This document shows positions 4,209-10,886 of a stretch of 33,487 nt of DNA, one piece after another (the first letter of the stretch is position 1; each line of letters begins with the position of its first letter). The position numbers and the translations under genes were made by a program. Source of the stretch: Corallococcus llansteffanensis (GTDB lineage Bacteria; Myxococcota; Myxococcia; Myxococcales; Myxococcaceae); assembly GCF_003612055.1 (NCBI RefSeq), contig NZ_RAWB01000033.1:1-33487 (forward strand), in the 5' to 3' direction. Below the pieces are notes generated by a model. That model made no database searches. It was not told the origin of the DNA and saw only the letters and a list, made by a program, of their open reading frames with translations.

Positions 4209-5681
4209 ATGGCCGAGCGAATCCTCCTGAGCGCCCCGGAAGCCCCCCAGCGGACCTGGGCGCTGAGCGCGGTGGACATCGCGCTCAAGGACATGTTCGT
4301 GAGCTTCGCCCTGGCCTTCAGCGGGCCCATCCACACCGCGCGCTTCGCGGAGGCCCTCCGCCGCGCGCTCGTGCAGCATCCCTTCTTCCACGGGACGCTG
4401 CAGACGCGGAACGAAGCGCTGCTGCTCGTGAGCCCGGCGCCCACCGGCAACGGCGCGGTCGCCCTGGACGTGGCCACGGTGGAAGACACGCTGGAGTTGA
4501 AGCACTGGCCCGCGCTCTACCGCAGCGCCTTCATCGACGGCCTCGTCCCGAAGGGGCGGCTGGAGGGCCAGCGCGACCGGCCGCTGCTGCACCTGAAGCT
4601 GAACCATTTCCAGAACGCCTCCGTCGTGGGGCTGACCTGGAACCATGCCCTGTCGGACCTGCACGGCATCTACGGGTTCCTCGGGGCGGTGGCCCAGGTC
4701 TACAACGGCGGGGACGCGCCGGGCGCGGAGCCCCTCTTCGACCGGGCGGCCATCTGGCGCGAGCTGCAACTGGACCCGGAGGCGGGTGCGCCCCCCTCGC
4801 GTGAGGGCCGCAACGGCATCGTCGGCATCTCCCGCCTGCGCGCGGGGCTCGGGCTCGCCCGGTACCTGGGCACGGGCGTGCACGACGCGGTGCCGCTGTG
4901 TCTGTTGTTGGACGAGGACGGGGTGGAGGCCCTCAAGGCGGAGCTTGCGCCCACGGGGGTGCGGGCCTCCACGAACGACGTCGTCAACGCCACGCTGCTG
5001 AAGGCCTTCGCCGAGTGCGCCCGGGACACGGCCGGCACGGGCGACGTGGGCCTGTACTTCCCCATCGACGTGCGGGGGTTGCTGGGCATCCCGCCGGGGA
5101 CGCTGGCCAACTGTCTGGGGAACGCCTCCGCCGTGCTGTCCCTGCCCGAGCTGTCGCGGGCCTCCGTGGCGGAGCTGACCGCGCGCAACCGGGCGGTCGT
5201 GGCGGCGTTCGGGAAGGCCCAGCTCGAAGCGGACATCCGCTGGGCGGACCACTGGCGGCGGAACACCCGTCCGTCGAGCGTGTATCACCACTGGTTGTTC
5301 GGACGGGACCGCGTCTACTCCTCGAACTGGTCCAGCCAGGACCTCACGCGGCTGCACTTCGAGGACGCGGCCTTCGTCGCCATGCTGCGCAGCTCGCGAA
5401 TCAACCGCTGGTTGCCCCTGCCGGCCTTCCACAGCACCGTCCTGCCGCTGAAGCTCGGCGAGGGCCGGCCGCTGCACGTGGTGCGCACCAGCGTGCGCCA
5501 GCGTCACTTCCAGCGCCTGGCGCGCCAGCTGCCCCAATGGCCACACGTCCGGGAGGTGCTCCGGATGGACACGGGCGAACGGCTGCTGGCTCCCGCGCGC
5601 GCCCACCCGGGCAGCCCTGCGCGCGGCGGGCCGGGCGGTGGGGTGGCCGGAGACGCACGGCGCGCCCTGCCTCCCCGGTGA
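4209..5681 (+). CDS. BAHD-like / condensation-superfamily acyltransferase
   Basis: Starting at the ATG at 4209, 32 bases after PaiB, this encodes 490 residues. An HxxxD active-site motif sits at His146-Asp150 (WNHALSDLHG), close to its usual place in BAHD acyltransferases and NRPS condensation domains. DVRGLLGIPPGTLANCLGNA, about residues 291-310, resembles the conserved segment in the second half of BAHD enzymes (PF02458, the plant and fungal transferase family). The usual DFGWG motif is not clearly present; the region around SSNWSSQDLTRLHF occupies its place. Such enzymes move an acyl group from CoA to an alcohol or amine. The last 30 residues are Gly/Pro/Ala-rich and probably disordered. 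The frame is open further upstream across PaiB, but that part is antisense-like and has no start with a ribosome site. Confidence 0.72.
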   Translation: MAERILLSAPEAPQRTWALSAVDIALKDMFVSFALAFSGPIHTARFAEALRRALVQHPFFHGTLQTRNEALLLVSPAPTGNGAVALDVATVEDTLELKHWPALYRSAFIDGLVPKGRLEGQRDRPLLHLKLNHFQNASVVGLTWNHALSDLHGIYGFLGAVAQVYNGGDAPGAEPLFDRAAIWRELQLDPEAGAPPSREGRNGIVGISRLRAGLGLARYLGTGVHDAVPLCLLLDEDGVEALKAELAPTGVRASTNDVVNATLLKAFAECARDTAGTGDVGLYFPIDVRGLLGIPPGTLANCLGNASAVLSLPELSRASVAELTARNRAVVAAFGKAQLEADIRWADHWRRNTRPSSVYHHWLFGRDRVYSSNWSSQDLTRLHFEDAAFVAMLRSSRINRWLPLPAFHSTVLPLKLGEGRPLHVVRTSVRQRHFQRLARQLPQWPHVREVLRMDTGERLLAPARAHPGSPARGGPGGGVAGDARRALPPR

Positions 5682-5731
5682 CATCCCACGGGGACGGACT
5701 CCACCTTGCAGGACAGGGAGGAGTACGAGTC

Positions 5732-6595
5732 ATGGGTCAGGGATATTCCATCAACATCGGGTTGAACGCGGTGGACCCCCACCACTACGCGGGCTGGGAC
5801 GGCCAGCTCACGGCGTGCGAGGCGGACGCGGAGGACATGGTCAGCATCGCGAAGACGCAGGGCTTCGGTCGGGTGACGCAGCTGCTCACGAAGGAGGCCA
5901 CGCGCTCGCGCATGCTGGGAGAGATGGACGAGGCGGTGAAGGTGCTCCAGGCCGGGGACCTGTTGCTGCTCACCTACTCGGGACACGGCGGCCAGCTCCC
6001 GGACACCAACGCCGATGAGTCCGACGGGCTGGACGAGACGTGGTGCCTCTATGACGGAGAGGTCATCGACGATGAGATCTACGTCGCGATGTCGAAGCTG
6101 AAGCCGGGGGTGCGCGTCTTCATGCTCTCCGACAGCTGCCACAGCGGTTCGGTGAGCAAGGTGGCCTACGCGGCCCTGCGCTCCAGCGGCAGCCTGCAGC
6201 TGCTCGCGGACACGGTGCAGAGCAGCGAGCCCTCCGAGCGGCGGTTCAAGGAGATGCCCCTGGGCATCGAGCACCGCACCTACCGCGACAACAAGGCGAT
6301 GTACGACGACATCATGAAGCGGCTGCCCAAGGAGGACCCGCGCCTCACGCTCAAGGCCACCGTGCTGCTCATCTCCGGCTGCCAGGACAACCAGCTCTCC
6401 AGCGACGGCGCCTTCAACGGCCTCTTCACGTCCAACCTGCTGCGCGTGTGGAACGGCGGGAAGTTCCGCAACGGCTACCAGACGTTCCACCGCCGCATCC
6501 TGCGCACCATGCCTCCCATCCAGTCGCCCGCGTACTCCGTCATCGGAGTGCCCAGTCGCGAGTTCGAGCGGCAGGTTCCCTTCCACTTGAGCTGA
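5732..6595 (+). CDS. Caspase-family (C14) peptidase, bacterial metacaspase/orthocaspase-like
   Basis: The 287-residue protein is essentially a bare p20-like caspase domain. The catalytic His is His85 in YSGHGGQ and the catalytic Cys is Cys136 in DSCHSGS; DGLDETWCLYDGE between them is the type I metacaspase segment that lines the active site. There is no signal peptide, transmembrane segment, prodomain or attached sensor domain. Metacaspases usually cut after Arg or Lys. The C-terminal part, with ISGCQDNQ and DGAFNGLFT, matches the small-subunit end of prokaryotic caspase homologues. The start is supported by the GGAGGAG stretch just upstream. The gene lies 50 bases after the BAHD-like gene and about 50 bases before the PYP-like gene, so all three may be cotranscribed. 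Confidence 0.88.
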   Translation: MGQGYSINIGLNAVDPHHYAGWDGQLTACEADAEDMVSIAKTQGFGRVTQLLTKEATRSRMLGEMDEAVKVLQAGDLLLLTYSGHGGQLPDTNADESDGLDETWCLYDGEVIDDEIYVAMSKLKPGVRVFMLSDSCHSGSVSKVAYAALRSSGSLQLLADTVQSSEPSERRFKEMPLGIEHRTYRDNKAMYDDIMKRLPKEDPRLTLKATVLLISGCQDNQLSSDGAFNGLFTSNLLRVWNGGKFRNGYQTFHRRILRTMPPIQSPAYSVIGVPSREFERQVPFHLS

Positions 6596-6648
6596 CGCAC
6601 GCTCAGCACCGGACAGTCCTTCGCCGTGGTTTCCGGAGCCTCCGGAGG

Positions 6649-7107
6649 GTGGCTGTTGGGCAGCCACCGCTTCGTGCCGCGCCGCTGCAAACCCATTCCC
6701 GCGAAGAGCTCGACGCCCTGATTCAACGGGTGGACGGCCTGTCGGAGCTGGAGCTCGACGGGCTTCCCCTGGGAATGATCCAGCTCGACTCGCAGGGGAA
6801 GATCCTCAAGTTCAACCGGACCGAGGCCTCCCTCGCCCGCATCAAGGCGAAGGACCAGATTGGCAGGAGCTTCTTCAACGAGGTCGCGCCCTGCACCCGC
6901 GTCCGGGAGTTCTACGGCCGGTTCCAGGAGGGCGTCCGGGCGAAGAACCTCTACCAGACCTTCGGGTTCATCTTCCGCTTCGCGCATGGCGCGCGGCACG
7001 TGGCCATCACCCTCTTCTACAGCGACAAGACGAATTCGGTGTGGGTCCTGGTCTCCGACCAGCAGGTGCCCAAGGACGGGTCGCCGCCCAGGAACCGGCT
7101 GGCCTGA
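6649..7107 (+). CDS. Photoactive yellow protein (PYP)-like PAS protein
   Basis: The protein (about 152 residues from the GTG at 6649) is a single PAS domain that aligns without gaps to residues 23-122 of Halorhodospira halophila PYP as I remember that sequence: LDGLPLGMIQLDSQGKIL, IGRSFFNEVAPCT, EFYGRFQEGV and WVLV all have direct counterparts. Cys82 matches Cys69, to which p-coumaric acid is bound in PYP; Glu59 matches Glu46. Tyr42 is replaced by Phe55, Thr50 by Ala and Arg52 by Ile, so the chromophore hydrogen-bond network would differ. A C-terminal tail of about 15 residues follows the domain. Start choice is uncertain: no ATG is suitably placed, the ribosome site is poor, and GTG at 6730 is an alternative. 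No Tyr ammonia-lyase or p-coumaroyl-CoA ligase is in the window, so chromophore supply is unproven. Confidence 0.75.
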   Translation: MAVGQPPLRAAPLQTHSREELDALIQRVDGLSELELDGLPLGMIQLDSQGKILKFNRTEASLARIKAKDQIGRSFFNEVAPCTRVREFYGRFQEGVRAKNLYQTFGFIFRFAHGARHVAITLFYSDKTNSVWVLVSDQQVPKDGSPPRNRLA

Positions 7108-8393: not shown

Positions 8394-10886
8394 TCAGAAG
8401 GTCCGGACGAAGAGCAGGCGCGCCTCGGGCGTGGCCCGCGCCTTCTCATCCGTGCGCCAGGCCGCGTCCACGCGCACCGCGTCGGTGAAGTGGAAGCTGG
8501 CGCCCACGCCCAGCCGCGGGTCCGTCCAATCGGAGGCGGCGTGCACCGCGCCCAGGTCCGCGAAGACGCCGAAGGCGTGCCAGCGGTACTCCGCGCTGCC
8601 GAGCACCGAGGCGTCGCCCCCGCGGAAGTCCTTGAAGCCGAAGCCGCGCAGCGCGCTCCAGCCGCCCAACGCCTCCTGCTTCTGCAGGGGCAGGTCCTGG
8701 CCTCCCGCGACGCGCAGGCGCACGCTCAGCCCCGAGTGCCAGGTGACGGGCAGGTCCAGCACCGCGTCACCGATGAGCTTCCAGAAGCGCGTGTCCACGC
8801 CCACCTGCTGGCCCACCTCCAGGGTGACGAGTCCGCGCAGCGCGGGCTCCCGCGTCCGGTCCCCTTCACGCGGGAAGAGGGACGTCTCCGGCGTCCGGAA
8901 GAGCGAGCCCACGGGCGACCCCGGCTTCGCCTTGCTGTCGTACTCCGCGCGCAGCACGACGGAGTGGAAGCGGCCCTCGCTCACCGGCGCGTTGGGGAAG
9001 GGCGGCGAGTCCCGGCGGAACAGGGTGAGCGGCGGGGTGAAGGCCTGGAGGGATTCGTAGGTGTCGCCGTGGAACTCCGCGCCCGCGAGCCACGAGCGCG
9101 CAGGGCGCCAGGTGGCGAACGCCGCGAAGCCCTTGCGGCGGAAGTAGTCCCGGTCCGGCCGGTTGATGAGGAACGAGTAGACGTAGGAGTCGATGTCGCC
9201 CAGCCGCCAGCGGTCGGACGTGTCCGTGAAGTCGTGGACCTGCGCGCCCACCTCCGCGAGCCCCAGCGCGGGCACGTGCAGCTTCGCGCCGCCCAGCAGG
9301 CTGACGCGGCGCTGACGCTTCGTCCCCTCCGGATCATCCGGCAGCCGCTGGCCGCCCAGCCGCAGCGGGACGAAGAAGGCCGCATCCAGCGTCGCGTGCA
9401 CGCGGTCCTTCGGATCCCAGATGCGCAGCTCGGCCGCGAGTCCCGGCGCGAAGCCCGTCACCTGCGTGTGCACGGGCAGCAGCTCCACCGACAGGTCCGG
9501 CCGGCGCGCCCGCACGTGCACCACCAGGCGCCGTCCCTCCAGCGTGATGCCCTCCTCCCTTTCGTCGTGCCACGAGAACAGCTTCCGCCAACGCGACTCG
9601 GGCTCCTCGGGCTCCTTGTCCTCATCGCGCCGGGACGCACGCCGCTCCTGCTCCTGGGTGCGGTAGCGCCGCGCGCCGGTGGCCTCGCGCTCCTCGACGA
9701 CCTTCACGCTCCGGCGTTCCTCGTTCAGCCCCTCGCCGCCCACGGTCCGGAGGAAGCGCAGCCGCGACTCCAGGCGATCCACCGCACGGCGGGCGTCGCT
9801 GCGGAGGAAGACATCGCCCGGCGACAGGCCCAGCGCCTCGCGCACCCGCTCCGCCATCTTGGGCTCCACACCGGGCACGTCCACGGCCTCCAGCCGGCCC
9901 TCGTCCACCGTCACCACCAACGCGCCTTCGTGGGACAGCGTGGCGGACACCGTCGCCAGCAGGTAGCCCTCATCATCCCGCAGCTCATTCAGCGAGCGCT
10001 CCAGCGCGGCGTCCAGCCCGCCCTGCACGATGCCGGGATGGAACTGCCCGCGCTCGATGTGCGCGAGCCACTCGCGGGGCGGATGAAGCGGAGGGCACGG
10101 GTTGTCGATGGACACCTTCGCGCGGCGTCCGTGGATGCGCACCGTGGCGACGAACTCCTCCACGTCCCGCTCATCATCGTCATCGTCTTCGTCATCGTTC
10201 CCGAAGGAGCCGGGCGGCCGGGGGAACAGCTCCTCCAGCCACTCCTGCGGAGGAAGGTCCTGGAGCCCCTGGACCTGCACCGAGGTGACGGTGGGGTACT
10301 CCTCCAGCGTCACCTCCAGCAGCGCTGGCCCCTGTTCGCTGACGCGCAGGCGGGGCGCCACGTGGGCGAAGAGGCCCGTGCCCGCGAGCTTTCGCAGCAG
10401 CGTCTGCACCTCCTTGGGGGACAGCGGCTCCGTGGCCCCGGCGGCGGGGGCGCCCACGAGCGCGCGCACCTGCGCATCCGTCAGGTGATGGAGCCCCACG
10501 AGCGCGAGGCCTGTCGGCGCCAGCCCCTTGCCGTTGACGTCCAACTGGAGCGGCGCGAGGACCGATGGGTTGGAGTCGTCGTCGTCGTCGAAGCCGTCGG
10601 GGCACTCCTCGCGCGCCGTGGCGTCCTCATCGTCCGGATCGTTGTCGTTGTCGTCGTCGTTGTCGTCGTCCGGATCCTCATGTTCGTCCGGATCCTCATC
10701 CGGATCCTCCTCGTCCTTGGGCGCTCTGGCCTGGGACCGCGTGGCGTCCCCGGAGGGAGCCGTGAGCGCGCCGGCATCAGACGGGAGCGTGCCGGCGTCC
10801 CCCGCGGGTTGCGCGAGGGCGGCGAGCGAGACGAAGCAGAGGCAGAGACAGAGCAGGATGCGATTCATGCGGGGTGGCAGGAGCAT
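8394..10886 (-). CDS. Omp85/BamA-TamA-like outer-membrane protein with Asp-rich repeats
   Basis: About 830 residues. A signal peptide (ILLCLCLCFVSLAALAQ) is followed by an Ala/Asp linker and an extreme Asp/Glu-rich tract (about residues 58-105). Then come POTRA-like modules, one containing VTSVQVQGL and another LSPGDVFLRSDARRAVDRLE, with two further charged insertions (about residues 255 and 465). The C-terminal 400 residues are amphipathic strands, and the chain ends in LLFVRTF; a terminal Phe is usual for beta-barrel outer-membrane proteins. GGWSALRGFGFKDFRGG resembles the conserved RGF region of Omp85 barrels. It probably inserts or exports proteins or lipids, but it is not the housekeeping BamA judging by its unusual acidic insertions. 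The ATG at 10886 has a GGAA ribosome site; the ATG at 10868 gives the same mature protein. Confidence 0.75.
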   Translation of the reverse strand: MLLPPRMNRILLCLCLCFVSLAALAQPAGDAGTLPSDAGALTAPSGDATRSQARAPKDEEDPDEDPDEHEDPDDDNDDDNDNDPDDEDATAREECPDGFDDDDDSNPSVLAPLQLDVNGKGLAPTGLALVGLHHLTDAQVRALVGAPAAGATEPLSPKEVQTLLRKLAGTGLFAHVAPRLRVSEQGPALLEVTLEEYPTVTSVQVQGLQDLPPQEWLEELFPRPPGSFGNDDEDDDDDERDVEEFVATVRIHGRRAKVSIDNPCPPLHPPREWLAHIERGQFHPGIVQGGLDAALERSLNELRDDEGYLLATVSATLSHEGALVVTVDEGRLEAVDVPGVEPKMAERVREALGLSPGDVFLRSDARRAVDRLESRLRFLRTVGGEGLNEERRSVKVVEEREATGARRYRTQEQERRASRRDEDKEPEEPESRWRKLFSWHDEREEGITLEGRRLVVHVRARRPDLSVELLPVHTQVTGFAPGLAAELRIWDPKDRVHATLDAAFFVPLRLGGQRLPDDPEGTKRQRRVSLLGGAKLHVPALGLAEVGAQVHDFTDTSDRWRLGDIDSYVYSFLINRPDRDYFRRKGFAAFATWRPARSWLAGAEFHGDTYESLQAFTPPLTLFRRDSPPFPNAPVSEGRFHSVVLRAEYDSKAKPGSPVGSLFRTPETSLFPREGDRTREPALRGLVTLEVGQQVGVDTRFWKLIGDAVLDLPVTWHSGLSVRLRVAGGQDLPLQKQEALGGWSALRGFGFKDFRGGDASVLGSAEYRWHAFGVFADLGAVHAASDWTDPRLGVGASFHFTDAVRVDAAWRTDEKARATPEARLLFVRTF
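10575..10717. repeat. Trinucleotide and 12-bp repeat tract encoding Asp-rich segment
   Basis: This stretch is made of GTC/GTT triplets and three copies of a 12-base unit TCCGGATCCTCA (10669-10680, 10687-10698 and 10699-10710, the last with one change). On the minus strand it encodes runs of Asp and DEDP-like tetrapeptides in the Omp85-like protein. All repeat periods are multiples of three, so slippage would change tract length without breaking the frame. Confidence 0.85.

Follow-up and report, generated by a model that had tools for sequence, protein, structure and literature searches.

The forward-strand open reading frame at 6649-7107 of the window (the whole 33,487-nucleotide stretch of Corallococcus llansteffanensis DNA analyzed, a single contig out of 1244 in a 10.5 Mb draft assembly) raises the question of whether its product is a true PYP and, if so, whether a protein with Phe in place of Tyr42 would still carry p-coumaric acid.

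Identity of the product and its pocket residues

The gene and the codons relevant to this question are as follows (residues after the word "for" refer to H. halophila PYP):

6649..7107, + strand: gene for a single-domain PYP-family PAS protein of 152 amino acids with an (uncertain) GTG start, assigned by TIGR02373, phmmer against PDB, AlphaFold, Foldseek, and VIA-align
6811..6813, + strand: Phe55 for Tyr42 (gapless alignment; Phe in 24/24 orthologues)
6823..6825, + strand: Glu59 for Glu46 (alignment; invariant in orthologues)
6835..6837, + strand: Ala63 for Thr50, with no hydroxyl to stand in for Tyr42 (invariant in orthologues)
6841..6843, + strand: Ile65 for Arg52 (invariant in orthologues)
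6892..6894, + strand: Cys82 for Cys69, the chromophore attachment position (invariant in orthologues, which were retrieved without a Cys-based pattern)
6985..6987, + strand: His113 for Met100 (His in 24/24 orthologues)

The product aligned to residues 18-122 of H. halophila PYP without gaps, with 41 of 105 residues identical (39%). This confirmed the gapless homology of the original prediction together with its residue pairs (Cys82/Cys69, Glu59/Glu46, and Phe55/Tyr42) and the loss of Arg52, the position of which is occupied by Ile65. F107, F111, and W132 were further paired with Tyr94, Tyr98, and Trp119, respectively. In PYP, Glu46 is the proton donor of the chromophore, and position 100 is linked to dark recovery.

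A match to a PYP model beyond generic PAS had been proposed as a check, and TIGR02373 indeed gave 96 bits (E value of 1.6e-27), compared with 41 bits for PF00989 (generic PAS), although its curated cut-off of 143.05 bits was not reached. This shortfall, and the Pfam assignment to PF00989, would suit a generic PAS domain with only a superficial likeness to PYP. However, other PYPs with Cys69 were also below the cut-off (an Allochromatium PYP fusion and a Gemmatimonadota protein: 122 and 100 bits, respectively), and the profile catches only ~20% of PYPs; such a score is usual for Cys69 members outside the H. halophila group (PMC9664959). Furthermore, PYP ranked first by a wide margin in all sequence and fold searches. 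The phmmer search against PDB gave an E value of 5.5e-21, and every match with an E value below 1e-14 was PYP or PYP-derived: R. centenum Ppr (1mzu) was first with 78 bits, followed by the Y42F mutant of H. halophila PYP (1f9i). When the AlphaFold model (mean pLDDT of 75) was used as the query, the top matches of Foldseek were all PYP (1.3e-11, against 2.5e-6 for the best non-PYP PAS), and VIA-align gave a Z of 17.6 and rmsd of 2.5 over 121 residues for PYP, against a Z of 12.3 for the best non-PYP PAS. By sequence and predicted fold, no other PAS came as close to the product as PYP, and we consider a generic PAS domain to be very improbable. In terms of the PAS_PYP family (PMC9664959), Cys69 and the Glu46 donor were both present, and the change from Tyr42 to Phe is tolerated (~9%). 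The product is a bona fide member of the PYP family carrying a known natural substitution. A chance or reverse-strand open reading frame was also considered, and was ruled out by dN/dS, a third-position GC of 0.90, and the orthologues.

Phe42 among orthologues and in the wider family

Relatives of the product were found in 34 of the 96 genomes of the source organism's family, and one orthologous group contained 24 members from six genera. All 24 had F42, N43, E46, A50, R51, I52, F62, VAPCT (V66, A67, P68, and C69), F92, F94, F96, F98, H100, and W119; R51 is Arg64 of the product, adjoining Ile65. The substitution set Y42F, T50A, R52I, Y94F, Y98F, and M100H was fixed in this group. Residue counts from the contig pattern search are biased, as APCT and FNx[TA]E were part of its patterns, whereas the family search is unbiased. 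Invariant columns (53 of 102 in the orthologue alignment) were enriched in pocket columns, including all nine published pocket positions, with Phe at 42 (p 0.002), and, in a second set, 19 of 21 pocket columns (p 5e-5). The dN/dS values among Corallococcus orthologues were 0.12-0.26, i.e., purifying selection. Given the conservation across the 24 orthologues and these values, the gene is maintained and its Phe42 is fixed, rather than being the result of damage to a single genome.

The original prediction regarded Phe42 and the loss of Arg52 as an oddity, and PYP-like proteins as rare outside phototrophs and a few other groups. Both views were overstated: Y42F is found in ~9% of PYPs (PMC9664959 and PMC12826048) and Leu is the consensus at position 52 (PMC12826048, which also gives Ala as the consensus at position 50), while PYPs are widespread in Myxococcota, where PYP-bearing genomes reach their highest share and where the family has been proposed to originate (PMC9664959). 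The novelty of the protein shrinks accordingly, the substitution, the myxobacterial distribution, and the Ala50 and Leu52 consensus being already on record in these two sources.

In a tree of 109 PYP domains, parsimony gave ~11 interchanges between Phe42 and Tyr42, at least four of them on starred branches, with many forks open. Residue 50 among the 40 rows with Phe42 was Ala in 33, Ser in 6, and Thr in 1. Gln46 was found in none of these 40 rows and all four rows with Gln46 had Tyr42; Y42F and E46Q are described as mutually exclusive in PYPs (PMC9664959). The constant retention of Glu46 with Phe42 is expected if one hydrogen-bond donor must remain. When Tyr42 of H. halophila PYP is mutated to Phe, the hydrogen bond is shifted to Thr50 (PMC9664959); Ala50 closes this route, and Glu46 alone is then left as the expected side-chain donor to the phenolate. 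During the photocycle of H. halophila PYP, Arg52 is the partner of the phenolate in the pB state (PMC11003764); the product has Ile at this position. Among the other domains collected, a Chromatium weissei PYP fusion (L108) had His at position 46, instead of Glu or Gln, and an Acidobacteriota (Thermoanaerobaculia) contig (L059) encoded three PYP-like domains within 2 kb.

A second type of PYP, single-domain with Tyr42 and Trp100, was present in some Stigmatella-like and Myxococcus-like genomes, and in other genomes, including C. sicarius (G023), the second PYP had Tyr42 and a long C-terminal part. At five myxobacterial loci (L029, L030, L117, L143, and L144), a Tyr42 PYP was N-terminal to ~200 further residues, which may be a V4R-like domain. 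No second PYP was found in the source genome, which has only the Phe42 type; two weak TIGR02373 matches there were rejected as PYPs, being long multidomain frames unmatched by PYP queries.

The 5' end, neighborhood, and chromophore supply

The nearest named relatives were Corallococcus sicarius (88% identical) and Corallococcus sp. CA053C (86% identical). Comparison of window positions 6596-6676 with 8535-10016 of the CA053C locus (L037) showed that DNA immediately upstream of the PYP gene has been deleted and replaced:

6630..6676, + strand: 47 bp replacing the native start codon and leader of CA053C (blastn against L037)

This segment holds an 8-bp inverted repeat, GGTGGCTG-TTGGG-CAGCCACC, at the new start, and ~1.3 kb located further upstream in CA053C is absent from the window. 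A repeat element at the 5' end was rejected, the 25-mer there being unique in the source genome. GTG at 6649 abuts GGAGG with zero spacer, codons 1-9 have no match in the relatives, and this GTG is doubtful as the true start. The replacement is either a real rearrangement that altered expression or a misjoin in the draft. Since the native start and leader were replaced, expression in the source strain is uncertain, and the exchanged ATG and leader segment, the missing upstream DNA, and the unusual first codons may all indicate a gene that is decaying or silent in this genome only. On the other hand, the domain is intact, stop-free, and of low dN/dS, H. halophila PYP without residues 1-25 still folds (PDB 1odv), and misassembly may account for the join, given the 1244 contigs of the draft. 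Decay or silence appears somewhat unlikely, and would be compatible with chromophore binding by the orthologous group.

In Stigmatella- and Myxococcus-like genomes, the PYP gene lies between a divergent 4HBT thioesterase gene and convergent dNK and GDPD genes, and in other Corallococcus it adjoins a GST gene. An operon partner was ruled out because the neighborhood differs between Corallococcus groups; no light-signaling partner adjoined the PYP gene, and no neighbor was conserved across groups. A caspase-like (Peptidase_C14) protein is encoded directly upstream in the window (4898-6595, + strand), and CA053C has a gene with caspase-like sequence features (by eye) downstream of PYP. A DUF3419 protein is encoded near the window start (409-1557, + strand).

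Genes for tyrosine ammonia-lyase (TAL) and p-coumarate-CoA ligase (pCL) usually stand beside pyp in H. halophila, but are not a family requirement. Neither was found beside the present PYP gene, the neighbors of which were caspase-like and GNAT genes; most PYP operons likewise lack them (PMC12826048). The source genome encodes two aromatic amino acid lyases, one of which was clearly identified as histidine ammonia-lyase by TIGR01225 (694 bits). The best model for the other (G000:C277) was BagA/FevW tyrosine ammonia-lyase (416 bits, below the cut-off), and its cluster contains FabG, FabZ-like, and RND genes and a 575-amino acid ligase. The best NCBIfam model for this ligase, the best TIGR02372 match in the genome, was TIGR02372 (4-coumarate-CoA ligase; 89 bits, below the cut-off). 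By analogy with the Chitinophaga flexirubin cluster, which encodes proven TAL and 4CL (PMC3992019), this cluster could plausibly provide p-coumaroyl-CoA. Such a supply is not specific to PYP, since the lyase/ligase pair was missing in 9 of the 24 orthologue-bearing genomes and present in 5/5 PYP-negative Corallococcus. A tie between TAL or pCL and the presence of PYP was unsupported (Fisher p 0.06 and 0.10, with kinship as a confounder). The TAL-like lyase was found in 16/16 Corallococcus genomes searched.

Putative chromophore binding and comparison with known systems

On the basis of sequence and modeling, the protein is probably a chromophore-binding single-domain PYP. p-Coumaroyl-CoA, from the unlinked lyase and ligase or from p-coumarate taken up externally, would acylate Cys82, and the phenolate would be held by Glu59 alone, since positions 42 (Phe) and 50 (Ala) cannot donate. 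Blue/violet light would isomerize the chromophore, which would then be protonated by Glu59, and a partly unfolded state may signal to a soluble partner. The spectrum, ground-state protonation, and recovery rate would be expected to differ from those of H. halophila PYP; slow recovery, from the changes at Met100 and Arg52, is a guess. Counting against chromophore binding are the lack of adjoining TAL and pCL genes and of the unlinked pair in the nine genomes, the replacement of H. halophila tuning residues by F42, A50, I52, and H100, the lack of a conserved neighbor suggesting an output, and the loss of the native start region in the source genome.

Much of the same evidence would fit a PYP-derived domain that has abandoned p-coumarate, with Cys82 and the pocket instead binding another thiol-reactive or aromatic ligand, or serving as a redox or protein-interaction module: both the aryl-polyene-type lyase and the ligase are absent from those nine genomes, there is no operon link, and several tuning residues are replaced. 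A loss of light sensing has been proposed for some PYPs, but Cys69 is lost in these (PMC9664959), whereas Cys69, Glu46, and the nine pocket positions are invariant here across six genera. The local absence of TAL tells little because TAL occurs in only ~5% of predicted pyp operons (PMC12826048), and other lyases, plants, and litter are further potential sources of p-coumarate. We consider this alternative to be unlikely. The two possibilities of the original prediction, a holo-protein with altered tuning or an apo domain, were both apt, but the latter gained no strong support. Within the preferred reading of a chromophore-binding PYP, a fuller proposal is tentative and somewhat less than an even prospect: a natural holo-PYP with Glu46 as the only side-chain donor (Phe42 and Ala50), Arg52 and Met100 replaced, a spectrum of its own, and possibly a long-lived signaling state, fixed across fruiting myxobacteria and paired with a Tyr42 PYP in Stigmatella-like genomes.

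The Phe42/Ala50 pair, fixed in a whole orthologous group, is a natural test of the minimum hydrogen bonds of PYP. Fruiting-body formation is affected by light in PYP-bearing Stigmatella (PMC11832031), which makes a developmental function testable. No myxobacterial PYP was found among the characterized PYPs tabulated in the accessible part of PMC12826048.

The product shares Cys69, Glu46, Asn43, Phe62, Val66-Ala-Pro-Cys-Thr, Phe92, Phe96, and Trp119 with H. halophila PYP (TIGR02373; PDB 2phy), and differs by Phe42, Ala50, Ile52, Phe94, Phe98, and His100 and by having no pyp-pCL-TAL operon. Phe42 with Glu46 and Cys69 is common to the H. halophila Y42F mutant (PDB 1f9i); however, Thr50 is retained in the mutant and supplies the hydrogen bond instead (PMC9664959), whereas the product has Ala50. 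The R. centenum Ppr PYP domain (PDB 1mzu), the best PDB sequence match, differs in having Tyr42, Met100, and a phytochrome-kinase fusion. Natural Y42F PYPs (~9%; PMC9664959 and PMC12826048) similarly combine Phe42 with Glu46 and Cys69; in the present orthologous group, His100, Phe94, and Phe98 are additionally fixed in all six genera.
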